Of a stretch of DNA of 54,728 nucleotides, positions 5,509 through 20,235 are shown in pieces. The DNA is taken from the NCBI GenBank assembly GCA_947475225.1, contig CANJMQ010000017.1, positions 1 through 54,728 of the forward strand, read 5' to 3'. The stretch's first letter is position 1. Each line of letters starts with the position of its first letter. The stretch comes from Bradyrhizobiaceae bacterium (GTDB taxonomy: Bacteria; Pseudomonadota; Alphaproteobacteria; Rhizobiales; Aestuariivirgaceae). The notes under the pieces are model-generated. The model did not search any database. It saw only the letters and a list, made by a program, of their open reading frames with translations, and was not told the DNA's origin. The translations under genes were made by a program, and so were the position numbers.

Positions 5509-5857
5509 GTTCTCCTCCCTGTAAATACTTAAAATGTGCAAGCGGAGAAGTTTTCCAGAATAAGATTCGGGATATCCAAACCTCCTGGATTTGTTTGTCG
5601 GCGATAACCATGAACCGCAGTGAACTTAGACCCATACTATTCGACGATGTCGATGAGACCGGTGTCACGGGACACTCGCGTTGATCGTTCCTTATGGCTG
5701 CCGGGAAAAATGGTTTTGGCGGCCCGGCGGGTCTCCTGACGCCCACTCGGGCCAAGGCACAATCGATAGACAGGAGCCAGCCAGGCAACCCCAATCATGT
5801 GATTTCTCTGCAAGATGCCACCAGTTTTGCCACCGGCGCCGTCGGAAACGGCAAAGT

Positions 5858-7724
5858 ATGTACCGCAACGTGAGTGGCACGGAACGACGCCTCAGAATAG
5901 TCTTAGCCGCCAGTGCCGGGGTCGCTCCGTACCTTTTTGATGACACCGTCTCAGACACGCCGCTTGAACTGACTGAGTGCCAGTCGGCCATCATTGAGCC
6001 GCTGATCACCCAAGCTGGCGGTCATATACTAATGGCGTTTGGTGGCGCCTTCGTCGCCGAGTTTGTGAGTGTCGTGAATGCGGTGTCGTTTGCCATCTCG
6101 ATGCAGCAGGCCTTCGAGGCCCACAACGACACCGTTCCTGAGGATCGCCGCCTGATTTTCCGCGTCGGCATAGATCTCTGGGATACCGCCGCTGGATCGA
6201 AAGAAATATCTGACGAATGCGTGAACGTGGCTATTGGATTGCACGCTATCGCCAAGCCCGGTGGTATCCTGATCACGGAAACCGTCTTCCAGCATGCCCG
6301 CCATCACCTATCGTTTGACTTCGAGGATGCGGGCAAACACCGACTGACGGAGACCGCAGGTCTCATCCCAACATATCGCGTGGCGAACGGCACATCTCCC
6401 CAGTCGAATGGCCTCCGAGGCGATCACTTCCAAGCCTCACTCGTGGTTCTGCCATTCGTCAATATGAGTGGCGATCCTGAGCAAAACTACTTGAGTGATG
6501 GTATCACCGATGACATCATCGCCAGACTCTCGAAAATCTCAGCCCTCTATGTCGTATCACGAGATGTCGCTTTCAGCTACCAAGGTTCGACCGAGGTATT
6601 CAGTCAACTAGCACTGAAGCTCGGGGTCCAGTATCTCCTGCGAGGAAGCGTCAAGAAGCTCGGTGACCGACTGCTGATCAACGTCACATTGATCGACGGG
6701 CACACCCAAGCGCAAATCTGGGCGAAGCCTTACACTTTCGAGTTCCATGGCATCTTTGAGCTGCAAAGCTTCATTTCTGGCGACATTGCTGACGCACTCC
6801 ACCTCAAAGTTCTTCCCAAGGAACGGGATACGCTTAACCGCCGATCGACCTACAGCAGCGAGTCATATCGCTTCTATCTGATGGGCCGAAGCTACTTCAA
6901 TCTCAGCCACACGCGCCGCTCGCTCAGCCTCGCAAGGCAGATGTTTCAGAGGGCACTGGAGATTGGCCCGCACTATGCCGCGGCTCACGCCGGGATCGCG
7001 GACTGCTGCGCGCACCTTATCGAGGCCGGAGACTTCTCAGTCACTACTTCTGAAATTCTTGATCACAGCGAACGTGCACTCGCTATCGACAGTTCGCTGG
7101 CCGAGGCACATGCCTTCCAAAGGCCTCGCATTACATACAACAGGCCACTACGAGGAGGCAGAAGCCTGCTTCAAGCGCGCCATCACCTTGCAGCCTGACC
7201 TTTTCGAGGCTCATTACTTCTATGGCCGCAACTGCTTCAATCTTGGGCAATTTTCCGAGGCGTCAGATCTCTTCGGTCAGGCTGCCAAGCTCAAGAGAAG
7301 TGACTTCCGATCGCTCGGCATCCAGTCCATGTGCTTTCAGTCGCTATCACAGCTCAGTGAGGCTCGGACTGCTGCATGGAGTGCGCTCGGCCGTGTCGAA
7401 GCGACCATTTCCGACCGGCCCGACAACGTGGATGCGCTATCCTTCGGGGCTGGGATTCTGGCATTTTTGGGTGAATACGACCGAACCAGAGCTTGGGCCG
7501 AACGCGCAACGATCATCGATCCCGACGACTTTTACACGCAGTACAACGTGGCTTGCGCTTATGCGATCCTCGGCGCCAAAGAAGAGGCAATGGATCGGCT
7601 CGAACGTATTATGATGCCGCCCGCCCCGCGATCGCAGCATGAATTTATGATGCATGACAGCGACCTAGATGCTCTGCGCGACCACCCCCGCTATATTGGG
7701 CTCCTGAAAAGGCTTGGGTACTGA
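5858..7724 (+). pseudogene. adenylate-cyclase-like / TolB-like / TPR protein, frameshifted
   Basis: The reading frame from ATG 5858 (MYRNVSGTERRL) encodes, in order, a class III cyclase-like domain (about residues 9-180), a TolB/FlgO-like N-terminal domain (LVVLPFVNMSGDPEQNYLSD onward, about 200-330) and TPR repeats. It runs out of frame near 7113-7120. The TPR part resumes in the next frame (ASKGLALHTTGHYEEAEACF) and ends at 7724. Reading GCC-TCC instead of GCCTTCC would restore one protein of about 620 residues, so a single inserted T explains it. The cyclase domain has also lost both metal-binding Asp positions: AADVVGYS-like is AASAGVAP and TTGDG-like is AFGGA. It could not make cAMP even if intact. 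A sequencing error could cause the shift, but not the lost catalytic residues. Confidence 0.8.
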
Positions 7725-14699: not shown

Positions 14700-14810
14700 A
14701 GACATCGAGAACAGGGCCGCCGGTTCTAAGACGAGATAGAGAGTCACTGATCAGCCCCCAACGTGTGTTCCGGCTTGAATGTTAGTGCATGATTGGCTTG
14801 GAAGAACGAA

Positions 14811-15107
14811 GCAGAAAGTGAATACCGCAAAGCCCCCGTTGTCATCACAACCGAGCGGGAAAATCCGACGTGTTCCTGAGTAATCGTGAACACGTTCGCG
14901 AGTTGGTTTCGATCTCTGGGCTTCACGGGCGCCTCAAGCCACAGCTGATGTTGGACGGCGATTGCGGACTTGGCTAGACATGTTTCGACAGCCGGAAGAT
15001 CGCCAAGAGATATTCAAATCCGAGCAGGGCGTTCAGCGTCAGGTACCACACAGTGCTACATAGAGCATGATGCTGGCGCGACAAGGCGAGTGGTGGAGAT
15101 CACGTGA
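14811..15107 (+). pseudogene. small tyrosine recombinase, fossil copy 1
   Basis: Over some 300 nt this stretch aligns with the 3' half of the intact small recombinase at 17375. SEYRKAPVVITTER corresponds to SDYRNSPYVVTSER. 'atcgtgaacacgttcgcgag' corresponds to 'atcgtgaacaagttcgcggg'. The end reads RVVEIT-stop against RVVELT-stop. The active-site codons HSGRRTA are now HS-stop-CWTA, and there are frame changes and a degraded Tyr region. Weaker similarity may reach back to 14776. It stands directly upstream of the glycosyltransferase gene, as the intact copy stands upstream of the sulfotransferase-like gene. Confidence 0.8.
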
Positions 15108-15170
15108 AACGCCTATTGTCCAGTCGTATCGGCGCCAAGGTCAACCGATATCGTAAAGGAGATGATTCAG

Positions 15171-16184
15171 TTGAAGAACATCTGCATCGTGACTCGCCAC
15201 CCTTTCTGGAAAGAGCCCCTTGGAAATGGAACTCTGATGCGATCAAGACACAGAATGCTTTCGAATCTTTGTGATAATCTATTCGTCTTGTTCATTACCA
15301 AGTCAGATGAAAAATGCCCACTCCGCAACGGTGCAACACTTAAGGTGCAAGATCGGATCACACCACAGAACATCGCCAGTCTGGTGCACTTTATTAAACA
15401 AGAATTCATTGATATTTGTTATTTCTCTTATAATCTGTTCGGTAATATCGCTTCTCAACTGCCTTGTAAGACGGTTGTTGAGATTCACGATGTCCTGCAT
15501 CTTAGACAGGAGCAATTTCAAAAATATGGCTACGACGCACCAATTGAAGTGGATAAGCACGCAGAACTAGCGAGTCTCAAGCAATACGACTGGATCGTTA
15601 GCTTAAACCTCGATGAGGTGGATTATCTCAACAAGAACTCGTTGAGTAACGCGGTCTATGTTCCGCCAACAATGGAATTCCGGCGCATACCCAAACGTCA
15701 AGATGGTGAAATTTGCGCCGGCTTCATAGGCTCTTCCGCCAAGCCGAACATCGATGGATTGGTAAATTCAATTCATTACATTCGTGAGTTTCCCAGCTTG
15801 GTATTTGCCGGAGCAATCAGCCATCAATCTATCCTCGAACAGGTCCCATCGCAAAATCTCGAAAGAATGGGCATAATACCTGATGTGACGTTGTTCTACT
15901 CGCGAATCGACATCGCACTTAGCCCCATAAGGTTTGGTGCTGGACTGAAGATCAAGGTCTTTGAAGCACTCGCCTATGGAAAGCGCTTAATAGCCACTCG
16001 TCATTCAATTTCAGGTTTCCCCCAAGGTATAGAGAGCATAGTCTCCGTGGAGGATGATTTTGCAAAATGGAACGTTAATCTGCTTCAACAAACAATGGCA
16101 ATTCAGGAGTCAAAAATTGAGGAATACTTCTGTGCTAACTTTTCGTCATCTTCAACAGAGAAAATCATGCGTTCAATACTCTAA
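15171..16184 (+). CDS. glycosyltransferase, GT4-like (island cargo)
   Basis: The 337-residue protein begins KNICIVTRHPFW and ends with the GT-B nucleotide-sugar region (IALSPIRFGAGLKIKVFEAL, then ATRHSISGFP). It probably adds a sugar to a surface or lipid-linked glycan in the cytoplasm. I chose TTG 15171 because AAGGAG (15156-15161) lies 9 nt before it. The in-frame ATG 15162 directly abuts that site and would be too close. The gene is clearly AT-richer than the genes on either side of the island, a sign of transfer. It ends 12 nt before the fossil tail of a large recombinase gene on the other strand. Confidence 0.8.
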   Translation: MKNICIVTRHPFWKEPLGNGTLMRSRHRMLSNLCDNLFVLFITKSDEKCPLRNGATLKVQDRITPQNIASLVHFIKQEFIDICYFSYNLFGNIASQLPCKTVVEIHDVLHLRQEQFQKYGYDAPIEVDKHAELASLKQYDWIVSLNLDEVDYLNKNSLSNAVYVPPTMEFRRIPKRQDGEICAGFIGSSAKPNIDGLVNSIHYIREFPSLVFAGAISHQSILEQVPSQNLERMGIIPDVTLFYSRIDIALSPIRFGAGLKIKVFEALAYGKRLIATRHSISGFPQGIESIVSVEDDFAKWNVNLLQQTMAIQESKIEEYFCANFSSSSTEKIMRSIL

Positions 16185-16196
16185 ACCAAAAATCCA

Positions 16197-16234
16197 GTTT
16201 TCCATCGACCAACCGACCGCTCCGACTTTTTCCG
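16197..16234 (-). pseudogene. C-terminal tail of a large tyrosine recombinase (fossil)
   Basis: Read leftwards this encodes KVGAVGWSMEN, matching the last ten residues of the intact large recombinase (KIGAVDWLME) at 7 of 10 positions. DNA similarity starts with 'ttccatcgaccaa' against 'ttccatcaaccaa' at 18746. The stop codon itself has mutated. The position equivalent to that stop lies 12 nt after the cargo stop, as in the intact module. Confidence 0.72.
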
Positions 16235-16470
16235 TCGTGAACGCCTCGTCCAACGCTATCGTGAACAAGTTTGCCGCTTGGAATCGGGCGCCTGGCATTA
16301 CGGGAGCCTCAAGCCATAGCGGTCGGCGAACCGTTATCCCGAATTGGGTTAGAAAAATATTTCCAGTAGGTGGATGACTGAGAGATGTTCAAATCCTAGC
16401 GGGACACACAACTCTAAGCACGACGTAGCCAAGCATCGAGGCTGATGCGGGTGCGATGAGGCGTGTAGTT
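16234..16470 (+). pseudogene. small tyrosine recombinase, fossil copy 2
   Basis: The stretch keeps the frame of the C-terminal 75 residues of the small recombinase without a frameshift. SHSGRRTVIPNWVRKI corresponds to SHSGRRTAITNWARKI, and LRDVQILAGHTTLSTT to LRDVQILAGHSALSTT. Two codons have become stops (S to TGA, Q to TAG), and the catalytic Tyr of RYIEAD is now Ser (PSIEAD). It joins directly onto the tail of a large recombinase on the other strand, so the N-terminal parts of both genes were lost at one junction. Confidence 0.85.
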
Positions 16471-16518
16471 TACATATACTATACTTAGCATTAGTTAACA
16501 GGAGTAGGCAGTCAAAAA

Positions 16519-17328
16519 TTAGTTACAGAGATAAGCCAAAGTCTTAGTTGGCCAGGTCCATCGCCCAAGTACCAATTGATTACCTTGTATGCCGTCTAAC
16601 ACCGCGTAGCTCCCATCCGCTGAACCATTAAAACGGTACATAAGATACCTGTAGCTACTTATGTATTCTGAACCTCCGTAAGTTACGAAGATATTGCCCT
16701 TTTACCCGTCATAAGGATTGGTGGGATTTGGAAGACCAACAGCGTCCATAAACGCCTGAATATTAGACACTGACGAACCGTATTGCGCCTTGATTGTGTT
16801 CCATTCAGCGAGGGTGGCAGTCGAGCCAAACTCAGACTTCACTCCGCCAACAACATCGGCGTTGGAGTTGTAGGTATTTGACGTCAGGCTATAACAAGAA
16901 TAGGCCGGAGGATCGTTGGAGCACAAAATTTTACCTGCCAGATCAAAACCGATCACGTTGCCACCAGCGGAGCATTTTTGACCAGCATATGTATTTGGAC
17001 CTGTATCTCCCTTTAGACCCTGAGGACCCGTGTTGCCTTGAGCACCAACAGAACCTTGAGGCCCCGTCTGACCCTGAGCACCCGTAGCACCAGCGGGACC
17101 TTGCGCGCCTGTCGCACCAGCAACGCCTGTCGAGCCCTGAGGGCCGGTAGCTCCAGCGGCACCGGTGTCGCCTTTAGCTCCAGCAGCTCCGGTCGGTCCA
17201 GCGGGTCCAGTAACGCCTGTCTCACCGCCAGTTCCACTAGCTCCTATACTTTCACAACGAGTTCGGCCAAGCCGTTGAATTAACTATCGCGCCGAGAAGC
17301 AGTGGTAGTCTTTAATTCTTATACTCAT
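16519..17328 (-). pseudogene. collagen-like protein gene with two in-frame stop codons
   Basis: One frame of exactly 270 codons runs from ATG 17328 (AGGTGA ribosome-binding site 7-8 nt upstream) to TAA 16519-16521. It contains 28 uninterrupted Gly-X-Y triplets (codons 29-112, e.g. [15 protein letters not shown]). A Cys-containing C-terminal domain follows ([20 protein letters not shown] ... WTWPTKTLAYLCN). The frame is broken only by TAG at codon 15 (17284-17286) and TAA at codon 209 (16702-16704). No frameshift is visible, and sequence after the second stop is as protein-like as before it. Collagen-like proteins of this kind are surface fibres or phage tail-fibre parts. It probably no longer makes full-length product. 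Confidence 0.85.
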
Positions 17329-17374
17329 TATATTTTCACCTAATGGTTGAAAACTTAATGAGTGGGAATCGCCC

Positions 17375-17968
17375 GTGAGCCTCGCCAAACAAGCCAAGAT
17401 CCTTTCAAAGGCGCAGCAGGAAGCCGTCCTCGCCTCCCTCGCCTCTACTCGCTACCCCGCCCGTGACAGGGTGATCTTCCTGTTGTCTGTGAGGGCGGGC
17501 TTGAGGGCCAAGGAAATCGCCGCCTTGAAATGGGAGATGATTACGGACGCCGAGGGCGAGCTGGCTGATGTAATAGCCCTGACGAATGAGGCGGCGAAGG
17601 GACGTAGAGGTGGGCGTGCTATCCCCCTCGCCAAGGATCTCAAGGTGGCTCTTGTCGCTTTGAAAGCGGAGGCGGCGAGCGACTACCGGAACAGCCCCTA
17701 CGTTGTGACGAGCGAGCGGGGGCTGTCTACGTCGTCCTACGCCATCGTGAACAAGTTCGCGGGATGGTATCGGGCTTTGGGCTTCACAGGAGCATCAAGC
17801 CATAGCGGAAGACGAACGGCGATAACAAATTGGGCTAGAAAAATTTCAATAGTGGGTGGTAGCCTTAGGGATGTTCAGATCTTGGCGGGGCATTCAGCTT
17901 TGAGCACTACACAGCGATACATAGAGGCGGATGCTGGTGCGATGCGGCGGGTGGTGGAGTTGACTTAG
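17375..17968 (+). CDS. small tyrosine recombinase (intact copy)
   Basis: The 197-residue protein starts at GTG 17375. It consists nearly only of a tyrosine-recombinase catalytic domain: Arg44 in AGLRAKEIA, His143 and Arg146 in HSGRRT, His173 in LAGHSALSTT and Tyr182 in QRYIEAD. The core-binding domain is reduced to some 30 residues, so it is much shorter than XerC/D (about 300). It may act with a partner or on simple sites. Degenerate copies lie at 14811 and 16234. It is followed after 29 nt by a cargo gene on the same strand and is divergent from the collagen-like gene. Confidence 0.9.
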   Translation: MSLAKQAKILSKAQQEAVLASLASTRYPARDRVIFLLSVRAGLRAKEIAALKWEMITDAEGELADVIALTNEAAKGRRGGRAIPLAKDLKVALVALKAEAASDYRNSPYVVTSERGLSTSSYAIVNKFAGWYRALGFTGASSHSGRRTAITNWARKISIVGGSLRDVQILAGHSALSTTQRYIEADAGAMRRVVELT

Positions 17969-17997
17969 GATTGCTTCAATGCCATTCACAGGAATGA

Positions 17998-18729
17998 ATG
18001 TTAGGTGGGGCTGGAGAAGTGCTAGAGTTTGAATCGTTCTGCTATCTACAAAACCAGAAGACAGGCTCGACGTTTGTCGAGAAGTTTCTTAGAACGTTTT
18101 CAAACCAAACCCTTAAGCGTTATGATAAGCACGCACCAGTCAATATCTTTGATTATAATGAAACAAAATTCTATTTCATTAACGTTCGTAATCCCCTGGA
18201 ACTATATTGGTCGCTCTTCAACTATGGTCTCGATGGGAGAGGCGAGGTGTTTGTCAGGCTATCCAGATTGGGACACGGTCACCTCTATCAAAGTGATACG
18301 TCTGGTTTTGATGCTTGGTTGTCGTTCATACAAAAGCCCGAACATAGCCGCCTACTTCACCCGAAGTATACCGAGGCGGTCGCTCGGCAGTTCGGTTTTA
18401 TGACTTGGAGATTTTTGCGACTCGCCTGCTGTGGATTTGAGGACTTAGCGCCAGTCTTAAATGAGGCGGATAGACTCAAGACGGCAGAGCGATTGATTGT
18501 AAATAAGGTAATTAAGACTGAGACCCTGAAAGATGATCTGTATGAACTGGTGTCTAACGAATTGTCTCCGTATATTAAAAAATTAAAGCCAGCATTGCTC
18601 TGGCTCAATGAGGCGCAGCATATCAACGCTTCAAATGTTAGGAGCAAAGATGTAATACGTTCTTTGGCGACGGAAATGATAAAATCGCGAGAAGCTTATC
18701 TGTATAACAAGTTTTATTTAGACGTCTGA
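17998..18729 (+). CDS. sulfotransferase-like protein (island cargo)
   Basis: The 243-residue protein has a sulfotransferase-type loop near the N-terminus (YLQNQKTGSTFVEKFL) and a 3'-phosphate motif (FINVRNPLELYWSLFNYG). The rest is not closely like the two sulfotransferases at the left end of the window. ATG 17998 follows AGGA at short spacing; the GTG a few codons later is an alternative. Base composition is AT-rich relative to the chromosome. It lies between the small recombinase (29 nt upstream, same strand) and the large one (stop 12 nt downstream, opposite strand). Likely role: sulfation of a surface polysaccharide or glycolipid. Confidence 0.75.
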   Translation: MLGGAGEVLEFESFCYLQNQKTGSTFVEKFLRTFSNQTLKRYDKHAPVNIFDYNETKFYFINVRNPLELYWSLFNYGLDGRGEVFVRLSRLGHGHLYQSDTSGFDAWLSFIQKPEHSRLLHPKYTEAVARQFGFMTWRFLRLACCGFEDLAPVLNEADRLKTAERLIVNKVIKTETLKDDLYELVSNELSPYIKKLKPALLWLNEAQHINASNVRSKDVIRSLATEMIKSREAYLYNKFYLDV

Positions 18730-18741
18730 TTTCCTCCTCGA

Positions 18742-20007
18742 CTATTCCATCAACCAATCCACCGCCCCGATCTTCCGAGTCTTGCTGCCGCCCGTTCGCT
18801 TTGTGAGTTCGGCGGCGTTCACTACGTTGCTCGTATGCCCATAGTGCTTCTCCAGCATCGCCGTACTCGTCCCCATATTTTGCGCGAGAATGTATTGGTG
18901 AACGCCCTCCTGAAGCCTGAACGTCGCGTATGTGTGACGTAGCGAATAGATGGTGCGCCGATTGCCGTGGCTATCCTTCTCAACCTTCGCCGACTTCAAC
19001 AACGAAGCGAACGACTTCTTGAAACTTCCAATCGGCGTTCCATCGGCATTGGCGAACACGTAATCATCGCCGCTTGGTCTGCTACCCATCTCGTTCATTC
19101 TCAAATCAAGAATTCGCTTGAAGTAGATCTTCACATCGCCGCTCTTTGAAACGACTTCGCGTGGTCCAGTCTTTCCATTCACAAACAACGCAACATCCGG
19201 CTGCTGTTCAGTTCCAGCGGGCGGAGCGATTTCACGAATGTCGCGCCACTTCAATGTCCGTGCTTCACCAACGCGAATGCCAGTGCTTGCCAAGATCAAC
19301 ACATAGTTCACGAGCATCGTCCGATCCCGAAACACGTTCGGGTCTTTCACTTTGATGAACTCACGAAGATGCCGAGCGAGCTTCCGCCAATCCTTGTAAT
19401 CGAAATGCGGACGCCGATTACCGTCACCCTTTAGTCTCGGGAACTTGGGCGACTGCTGAATGTAGCCCCGCTCGACGCACCAGCCGAAGAACTGCTTCAG
19501 ATCGGTGAAGTTACGCTTGATCGTATTGGGTGACAGCTTGCCCTTGGTCGCGTTCGTTCCAAGCCAGACGATGAAGTCGCTCAGTACGGCTGTGTTGATT
19601 TCAGCCAGCCGCTTGTTCTTGAAAAATGGAGCCGAACGCTTCAGGAAATGAATACGGAGAGCGACTGAAAGCTTCTCGTCCTTCATCGGCTCTAGCGAAG
19701 TCACATACTCGTAGATCGCCGCCTGAGCCTTCTTGGCGTTGATCTCTTGTCCGCCCGCTACACGAACCAGCGTCTTGTTGAATAGGTCGTTGGCGAAGGC
19801 GAAAGCTTGGTGCTCGTCCGTGGTCTTGGTGCTGGCTTGAACGTAGCCTTTTCCGTTTGGAACTCTCACACGGCAGAACCAGGTCGGCTTCTTGTAATCG
19901 GCTCGTCTGAAAAGGTAGATCGCGCCGTCCTTGAATGTGCGGCTATCAAGCTCGGTTTTCGGCTTTCGCTCGCGGCTTGGCTTGGTCGGCTGAACGGTGG
20001 CGTTCAA
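18742..20007 (-). CDS. large tyrosine recombinase / integrase next to tRNA-Gly
   Basis: The 421-residue protein has an N-terminal arm-type region (YLFRRADYKKPTWFCRVRVP), a SAM-like core-binding domain (about 90-195) and a C-terminal catalytic domain. The catalytic residues are Arg245 (TGIRVGEARTLKW), Lys279 in NGKTG, Arg357 (YSLRHTYA) and Tyr389 (MLEKHYGHT). The usual LGH motif reads NMGTS, as I recall for some related phage-type integrases. I chose TTG 20007 because GGGGAG lies 5 nt before it; a longer frame from TTG 20034 lacks this. The gene points away from tRNA-Gly, whose 3' end is 126 nt upstream of the longer frame, the usual layout of a tRNA-targeted island. Confidence 0.9.
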   Translation of the reverse strand: MNATVQPTKPSRERKPKTELDSRTFKDGAIYLFRRADYKKPTWFCRVRVPNGKGYVQASTKTTDEHQAFAFANDLFNKTLVRVAGGQEINAKKAQAAIYEYVTSLEPMKDEKLSVALRIHFLKRSAPFFKNKRLAEINTAVLSDFIVWLGTNATKGKLSPNTIKRNFTDLKQFFGWCVERGYIQQSPKFPRLKGDGNRRPHFDYKDWRKLARHLREFIKVKDPNVFRDRTMLVNYVLILASTGIRVGEARTLKWRDIREIAPPAGTEQQPDVALFVNGKTGPREVVSKSGDVKIYFKRILDLRMNEMGSRPSGDDYVFANADGTPIGSFKKSFASLLKSAKVEKDSHGNRRTIYSLRHTYATFRLQEGVHQYILAQNMGTSTAMLEKHYGHTSNVVNAAELTKRTGGSKTRKIGAVDWLME

Positions 20008-20160
20008 AGCGGCTCCCCTTAGGATTTGACCCAAGGAGAACGATAAACGGGAGCCGATTTAAAGGAAATCCGTTTACGATCCGGCTACGACAAAATAGTC
20101 CTAAAAAGCACCGATCCGCCCGAAGGCGAATTTCTAAATCACTGATTTAAGGAGAGAAAT

Positions 20161-20235
20161 TGGAGCGGGCGAGGCGAATCGAACGCCCGACCCTAACCTT
20201 GGCAAGGTTATGCTCTACCCCTGAGCTACGCCCGC
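20161..20235 (-). tRNA. tRNA-Gly (GCC)
   Basis: Read on the minus strand, a complete cloverleaf of 75 nt including an encoded CCA is present. The acceptor is GCGGGCG/CGCCCGC with U73, the D arm is GCTC...GAGC, the anticodon stem is TAACC/GGTTA around TTGCCAA (anticodon GCC) and the T arm is GGGCG/CGCCT around TTCGATT. Its 3' end faces the integrase gene, which makes it the likely attachment site of the island. No copy of the 3' end was found by eye at the far side. Confidence 0.95.

Follow-up and report, generated by a model that had tools for sequence, protein, structure and literature searches.

The 54,728-nucleotide (nt) window analysed here is the entire contig CANJMQ010000017.1 (C17) of the Bradyrhizobiaceae assembly GCA_947475225.1, a 4.1-Mb draft genome made up of 177 contigs. 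Towards its left side stands a run of intact and decayed tyrosine recombinase genes with accessory (cargo) genes between them, ending at a gene for a glycine transfer RNA (tRNA-Gly). We think this is probably a tRNA-Gly island, formed by successive integrations of one element family, with a hotspot lying between the convergent 3' ends of a small recombinase gene and a large integrase gene and with cargo exchanged there as a tract. It is best read as an accessory-gene hotspot like those of phages, satellites and islands, having two convergent tyrosine recombinases as its anchors. The layout is real, repeated and partly new, and on present evidence it is no new kind of system.

The window holds three units: a decayed small recombinase with a glycosyltransferase gene and an integrase tail, a second decayed small recombinase with a collagen-like remnant, and an intact series of recombinase, cargo, integrase and tRNA. 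Their parts, with protein lengths in amino acids (aa), are as follows.

14787-15104, + strand: decayed 3' part of a small recombinase (fragment f1), 60% identical to residues 92-197 of the intact copy, with three TGA codons; repeat family D1.
15162-16184, + strand: intact glycosyltransferase cargo gene, 340 aa; Pfam Glyco_trans_1_4 at 4.2e-9.
About 16200-16229, - strand: tail of a large integrase gene, last 10 codons (KVGAVGWSME), stop codon lost.
16237-16476, + strand: decayed 3' part of a small recombinase (fragment f2), 75% identical to residues 117-195, with one TGA and one TAG; repeat family D1.
16700-17240, - strand: remnant of a collagen-like (Gly-X-Y) gene without an intact frame; 9/27-nt repeats D2-D4, Gly-X-Y reading by eye.
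17375-17968, + strand: small tyrosine recombinase, 197 aa, catalytic domain only; Pfam Phage_integrase 3.1e-16, phrog_216 1.1e-30.
17998-18729, + strand: sulfotransferase-like cargo gene, 243 aa; Pfam Sulfotransfer_2 at E = 0.01, under its cut-off.
18742-20034, - strand: large tyrosine integrase, 430 aa; Pfam Phage_integrase 5.8e-10, Phage_int_SAM_5 5.1e-8; phrog_1 8.5e-38.
20161-20235, - strand: tRNA-Gly(gcc), located with ARAGORN; presumed target gene of the integrase.

An earlier note, made from the letters of this DNA, had described the right-hand module as a small recombinase and a cargo gene facing a large recombinase, both recombinases of the tyrosine type, and had seen the same order on the left around an intact glycosyltransferase gene. 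All of this is borne out by the coordinates and profile matches above; what that description missed were the second decayed copy, f2, and the tRNA gene. In the intact unit the Phage_integrase match covers residues 10-186 of the small recombinase, and an alignment of this protein with six relatives leaves R44, H143, R146, H173 and Y182 invariant, which we take to be the catalytic residues. Its stop codon lies 29 nt before the start of the sulfotransferase-like gene, whose own stop lies 12 nt from that of the convergent integrase. The integrase starts 126 nt from the 3' end of the tRNA-Gly gene, directly beside it, as expected of a tRNA-targeted element; the large recombinase is an ordinary tRNA-gene integrase in the position usual for such enzymes. 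This youngest unit spans 17.3-20.16 kilobases (kb), about 2.9 kb, and no backbone genes lie between the collagen-like remnant and the tRNA gene.

Both intact cargo genes are AT-rich, as had been noticed, with a guanine-plus-cytosine content of 0.430 (sulfotransferase-like) and 0.436 (glycosyltransferase), where the remainder of the window has 0.626. At E <= 1e-8 the former was found in this genome only, 1 of 397 genomes of the order, and at E <= 1e-15 the latter had no relatives in the 68 other genomes of the family (1/69). Since they are AT-rich and, of the genomes searched, only this one has them, the two genes fit import. That both are glycan modifiers, as first suggested, holds for the glycosyltransferase, which scores 37.2 bits against a cut-off of 27. 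The sulfotransferase call rests on a match of 16.4 bits against a cut-off of 22 and on P-loop-like KTGST and RNP...S stretches that presumably fit such an enzyme; a single-sequence structure model was unusable, with a predicted local distance difference test (pLDDT) score of 46, and was not taken to a fold search. In the viral contigs searched, neither window recombinase had a close relative, nor did the sulfotransferase-like gene; phage records gave at most one weak match to cargo. No phage structural genes were noticed around the unit, in a comparison of only six window proteins with phage families.

The left part reads as what is left of earlier elements belonging to the family of the youngest unit. 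The integrase tail is real: of 26 nt aligned with the 3' end of the window integrase gene, 22 agree, and among 500 random 61-nt pieces taken from elsewhere in the window not one reached its score. Fragment f2 joins this tail directly, and its farthest-left partner, f1, is the copy most distant from the tRNA. Compared with the intact small recombinase gene, f1 has 70.6% DNA identity and three stops and f2 has 74.6% and two; the greater decay of f1 fits, if weakly, a history in which later integrations beside the tRNA pushed older units away. The glycosyltransferase gene has outlived its decayed recombinases. The collagen-like remnant was probably the cargo of the second old element. Three other places in this genome also have a collagen-like gene convergent to a small recombinase, either whole or as a 3' fragment (L015 10953-12608, L016 10462-12600 and L017 1525-2613), at spacings of 30, 269 and 73 nt; the Pfam Collagen family was tested for one of the three. 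We read the repeated module of the window as the outcome of one insertion after another at a single tRNA gene, with decay afterwards.

The same pairing recurs elsewhere, as sought within the loci fetched. A first survey gave seven independent pairs, all seven convergent: the window, C59, C53, L022, L066/L067 (one phage seen twice and counted once), L094 and L095. The second covered 43 genome loci (27 newly fetched, 15 older ones and the window, which is also L008), and eight of these had a strongly scoring integrase in reach: the window, C59, C53, L022, L227, L228, L217 and L235. Integrases under 100 bits were dropped from the count (L016, L212 and L214, the first being a same-direction XerD-like gene at 33 bits). 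The pairs in L227 and L228 are convergent, bringing the combined count to nine of 11, or eight of 10 if these two are taken as one. The recurrence of the two recombinases around variable genes, which the earlier note had posed as a check on its proposal, was therefore found. In most pairs the anchors themselves are far relatives, and in each of the eight independent convergent pairs the content between them differs, as expected of a hotspot. Besides the window, these contents are:

C59: a MASE1-like membrane protein (just under cut-off), a regulator-like gene (by eye) and a collagen-like protein with CBM_5_12.
C53: a 207-residue gene of unknown family, a second recombinase 3' fragment, a collagen-like gene, a clamp loader and others.
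L022: a 122-residue gene without a Pfam match (regulator-like by eye), an outer-membrane beta-barrel gene, an integrase tail of 30 codons that is 90% identical to the local integrase, and a Usp protein.
L227/L228: an acidic 245-residue protein without a Pfam match.
L094 and L095: genes without a clear family.
L067: empty, with 12 nt between the two recombinase stops; a phage contig with a phage helicase/primase and a Cas4-like exonuclease.

Surface-related genes are thus frequent between the anchors, although they are not the rule. The suggestion that the cargo always alters the cell surface fails on the acidic 245-aa protein, the Usp protein, a helicase gene and the replication-type genes that also occur. 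Nor is the cargo mostly anti-phage: compared at 1e-3 with the PADLOC library of 2023, by sequence comparison only, nine of 10 cargo proteins had no match, and the tenth (the Usp protein) matched Csx1 weakly. The 12-nt distance from cargo stop to integrase stop, offered before as a possible signature, is correct for both window modules. As a rule it breaks down, with 49 nt in L022 and 115 and 67 nt in L023, and the cargo-less phage contig has 12 nt as well.

The most direct view of exchange comes from G771 and G656, which belong to different families of the class (labels f70 and f160). In these two genomes a block running from just before the small recombinase to a tRNA-Met gene is 97.0% alike over 3,439 nt, while other shared pieces of the elements are 90-91% alike and the neighbouring chromosomal stretch 66%. 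This shows recent horizontal transfer in these relatives, though it does not show it for the window copy. The 103 mismatches of the block are spread unevenly: the first 270 nt that have any hold 22 and the last such 1,108 nt hold 78, and the ~1,980 nt between hold three. Neighbouring mismatches lie up to 1,399 nt apart, whereas 20,000 random placements gave distances of 434 nt at most. The near-identical tract begins near codon 47 of the small recombinase, spans the cargo and stops about 88 codons short of the end of the integrase. Identity at third codon positions is 100% in the cargo, 97.4% in the small recombinase, 84.9% in the integrase and 71-84% in backbone genes, so selection on the proteins does not explain the tract. 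The limit inside the integrase is clear. Wherever the other limit lies, cargo and the 3' part of the integrase have recently been shared by elements that otherwise differ by about a tenth. The viral contigs searched contained no close relatives of the G656 element's integrase.

Two further genomes carry integrases that are near relatives of the one in these tRNA-Met elements. In G900 the integrase region has 92.7% DNA identity and wholly different neighbours, the homology ending within the last ~11 integrase codons; the gene beside it is a DEAD-type helicase with DUF559. In G946 there is a cut integrase with tRNA-Met and, about 13 kb away from that tRNA gene, a 48-nt tRNA-like repeat that matches the 3' part of tRNA-Met at 96%. 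In G656 the 3' part of tRNA-Met is repeated exactly over 48 base pairs at a distance of about 20 kb. These related elements are accordingly ~13 and 20 kb long and have replication-type genes as well as tRNA-derived end repeats. Similar searches for end repeats of rpsI, secA, tRNA-Arg and tRNA-Lys in C59, C53, L053 and L022, and beside lone small recombinases at tRNA-Ser, tRNA-Lys and tRNA-His, gave nothing beyond one 12-mer. As to what these elements carry, the one in G656 (L238/L239, joined positions 369-20552) has a second, P4-type-looking integrase and, by eye, metal-handling-like genes in addition to the recombinase pair, and its left repeat also resembles the region upstream of the integrase, which suggests an older copy beside it. 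The G946 element encodes a 2,452-residue protein with Ig-like domains (L244 5000-12358). A conserved backbone protein with a WW motif recurs at L017 4584-5309, L015 13961-14683, L021 6419-7261 and in L237; the one tested had no Pfam or PHROG match, and a phage-type clamp loader stands beside it in some elements.

Relatives of the host also point to the tRNA-Gly gene as a target. The tRNA-Gly region was matched in all 37 genomes of the genus searched. In G012, G028 and G034 the stretch between tRNA-Gly and the integrase start is conserved as well; no integrase follows in the sequence at hand for the first two, and the contig of the third ends there. G008 has kept an integrase tail and a methyltransferase gene at the same tRNA-Gly. 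Given these remnants in four genomes, the tRNA-Gly site has been used repeatedly by this element family. The placement of the integrase beside its target is seen again at rpsI (C59) and secA (C53), both gene names assigned by eye, and at tRNA-Arg (L053) and tRNA-Met (L227/L228).

Recombinase stubs beside cargo form a further line of evidence. From 113 places matching small recombinases, 23 lacked more than 25 residues at one end. We dropped duplicates (L029 and L054 of L024; L030 and L052 of L025; L028 is L055), fragments at contig ends (the first copy in L017, the second in L023, and L113), alignments under 40% identity (L104, L121) and a 5' fragment (L109), and counted once a fragment of L025 that filled two rows; a further 5' part, in G234 (residues 2-144), lay outside the 23. 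Nine distinct fragments without an N-terminus were left: f1, f2, the second in C53, the first and third in L023, and those in L024, L025, L028/L055 and L102, the third in L023 also being without its 3' end. Seven of the nine are followed within about 230 nt by a gene, intact or as a remnant, whose product is a glycan enzyme or a secreted or surface protein, the exceptions being the third in L023 and that in L055. The seven neighbours are a glycosyltransferase, a collagen-like remnant, a collagen-like gene, a beta-barrel gene, a 474-residue protein, an RTX protein and a Sel1 protein, of which the 474-residue and Sel1 proteins were called secreted by eye. Integrase tails are known from five places (the window, L022, L023 twice, and G008 at tRNA-Gly), and all five have an accessory gene on the 3' side: the glycosyltransferase, three beta-barrel-type genes, one of them (in L023) without a Pfam match, and the methyltransferase. 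Where cargo, tail and fragment meet, integrase residue 420 stands beside recombinase residue 117 in the window, and about 396 beside about 83 in L023. Since these break points differ, a fixed site is less likely than deletion between neighbouring elements or joining of some other kind that is not site-specific.

Two candidate sites were set aside during this comparison. A fixed recombination site at about codon 119 of the small recombinase was rejected, the fragment starts being scattered (at window recombinase residues ~60, 63, 83, 85-92, 105, 107, 108-121, 117-119 and 120-135, several judged by eye). A common start of the integrase tails at residue 386-388, seen in DNA alignments of L022, L023 and G008, was not used; contrary starts are 380 in G008 by protein alignment, about 396 by eye for the second L023 tail and 420 in the window. 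One fragment stands in another setting: in L102 it lies at 6989-7264, directly before the Sel1-repeat gene and seemingly cutting the start of a helicase gene (5511-7001, RecD-like by eye), with no tRNA near.

Put together, the end of an element beside its target would often consist of a small tyrosine recombinase gene reading into one or more accessory genes, then a convergent integrase gene, then the target gene. The large integrase would insert the element at the tRNA 3' end, and the small recombinase may have a separate task, perhaps as the integrase of small elements of its own elsewhere. Cargo between the two 3' ends would be replaced through homologous recombination with the conserved recombinase genes serving as arms, so that an exchanged tract would take along adjoining parts of those genes. 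After integration the element would decay while useful cargo, presumably under selection, stays.

Several observations weigh against this account. At the tRNA-Gly site itself, no repeat of the tRNA-Gly 3' end of at least 12 nt was found left of the integrase in the window, and because of this the ends of the window units are undefined; an empty site is also unreadable, because the left neighbour of tRNA-Gly differs among the 14 relatives read. The order of integrations draws weak support from the identities of f1 and f2 given above. As to pairing, L217 and L235 run in the same direction, and 35 of the 43 genome loci have no strongly scoring large integrase in reach, several of these being cut by contig ends. 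The exchange tract is a single case, and the elements that show it are distant relatives of that in the window, the small recombinases being 37% identical. Its limit on the small-recombinase side is weak: 18 of the 22 mismatches there lie upstream of the gene and four in its first 141 nt, so few that the small recombinase may have been exchanged in full. No small recombinase occurs in the stretches fetched from G900 and G946, and exchange beside an integrase therefore does not always need that anchor. Finally, none of the five integrase tails is longer than about 50 codons, and the small-recombinase fragments all begin within residues 60-135; random deletion would suggest wider ranges.

It might be argued that all this is an ordinary decayed prophage or island, its layout a coincidence of phage mosaicism and its repeats without common cause. 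Phages commonly show mosaic junctions where genes end, and a recombinase pair does occur in the phage contig L067. However, convergent pairs recur, 3' fragments recur beside accessory genes and there is an exchange tract, and we regard coincidence as unlikely. In its strict form, the proposal of the earlier note would be a compact mobile unit that moves by itself and consists of nothing but two recombinases with a single surface-modifying cargo gene. The small extent of the youngest window unit and its want of backbone genes speak for such a unit, and the recombinase-to-tRNA block of G771 and G656 is more alike than the other pieces these elements share. Within that block, however, only the middle is nearly identical, the 5' part of the integrase being about 91-96% alike; the relatives are the 13-20 kb elements with replication-type genes, and the 12-nt spacing is not general. 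A self-moving unit of this kind is therefore quite unlikely, although the G771/G656 tract upholds the proposal's other half, that the cargo between the recombinases is exchangeable.

Other mechanisms of exchange would give the recombinases a more active part. Circles made of a small-recombinase 3' part, cargo and an integrase tail might be moved by one recombinase, as integron-like cassettes with their sites in the coding parts; fragments of about such extent do recur, and the near-identical tract covers a similar stretch. The break points given above differ between the window and L023, though, and homology between copies ends at the recombinase stop with no shared site after it, which makes this highly improbable. 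We would rate as very doubtful, too, the idea that what is exchanged is a defined cassette, from the 3' half of the small recombinase through the accessory gene to the 3' tail of the integrase, which one of the two recombinases moves through sites in the coding parts; were it true, the recombinase genes would be machinery and docking sites at once, and the tandem cassettes with stubs in the window, L023 and L022 would be footprints. Phase variation, with the small recombinase as a FimB-like invertase switching the adjoining surface gene, deserves hardly any credence: the size class is the same, there is a weak match to a tyrosine-type DNA invertase family, and secreted or outer-membrane genes often adjoin the small recombinase, but only 29 nt separate its stop from the sulfotransferase-like start, no strong inverted repeat brackets the cargo, and the scores for the curated invertase families, 16.1 and 12.7 bits, lie far below their cut-offs (221 and 222). 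A hotspot between convergent anchors, filled by tract exchange in elements that integrate beside the tRNA, remains our preferred explanation.

Comparison with known systems helps to place this hotspot. The gtr clusters of P22-like phages are lysogenic conversion genes beside attP and int, and they resemble the present case in having genes that modify surface glycans near an integrase and an attachment site; they differ in their cargo families, and a second recombinase is present here. Integron cassette arrays likewise set exchangeable single genes in an array beside a tyrosine recombinase. Unlike in integrons, the break points here vary and the 3' coding part of the recombinase itself repeats; no attC-like site common to cassettes was seen, there being no shared sequence after the stops of 15 recombinase copies inspected by eye, without an attC search tool.

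The psu-int hotspot of P4-like satellites and the cI-int locus of K139-like phages are small, high-turnover loci between two conserved genes, one anchor being the integrase, in which accessory systems are swapped (PMC9122126). In our elements a tyrosine recombinase gene also forms the other anchor, facing the integrase gene, the cargo leans to secreted, outer-membrane and glycan genes, and stubs stay with the cargo. The islands I23, I44 and I55 downstream of the transfer-messenger RNA (tmRNA) gene in Pseudomonas likewise have a tyrosine integrase adjoining an RNA gene with variable cargo beside it, together with 14-bp end repeats and no genes for autonomous transfer; they differ in a conserved far end with alpA, and the accessible parts of the source mention no second bracketing recombinase (PMC12595487). 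Tycheposons are also tRNA-anchored, use a tyrosine recombinase and carry cargo in aquatic bacteria (PMC10872708), a likeness from which we claim no membership. Literature searches, mostly without subscription papers, found no described convergent recombinase pair that brackets cargo, and we do not claim that none is in print.

The small recombinase has a life outside these pairs. Its family appears in 355 plasmid records and 58 phage records, and since it is common alone in genomes, on plasmids and in phage records, the pairing is a special case of a widespread gene. It is common in Acinetobacter plasmids, and a Piscirickettsia plasmid (L187) has a copy 55.6% identical to that of the window, with often several per plasmid in that genus. 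Lone copies often adjoin a DUF3768-like gene (confirmed with Pfam in L050; by eye in L047, L048, L051, L056, L057 and L214); several such loci also have a C39-like 'LCGxYAI' gene, by eye, and some lie near tRNA-Ser, tRNA-Lys or tRNA-His. Lone small recombinases with DUF3768-like neighbours may belong to very small integrative elements that form a family of their own.

If our reading of the hotspot is right, the anchor pair would retrieve exchangeable accessory genes, often with a putative surface or glycan role, from alphaproteobacterial genomes and from short metagenome contigs, in parallel with the use of psu-int for P4 defence genes. The tract common to G771 and G656 makes the exchange of cargo between elements directly testable. 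Stubs of recombinase and integrase genes beside an intact gene, as at the glycosyltransferase of the window, would moreover offer a way to spot cargo that has outlived the element which brought it.

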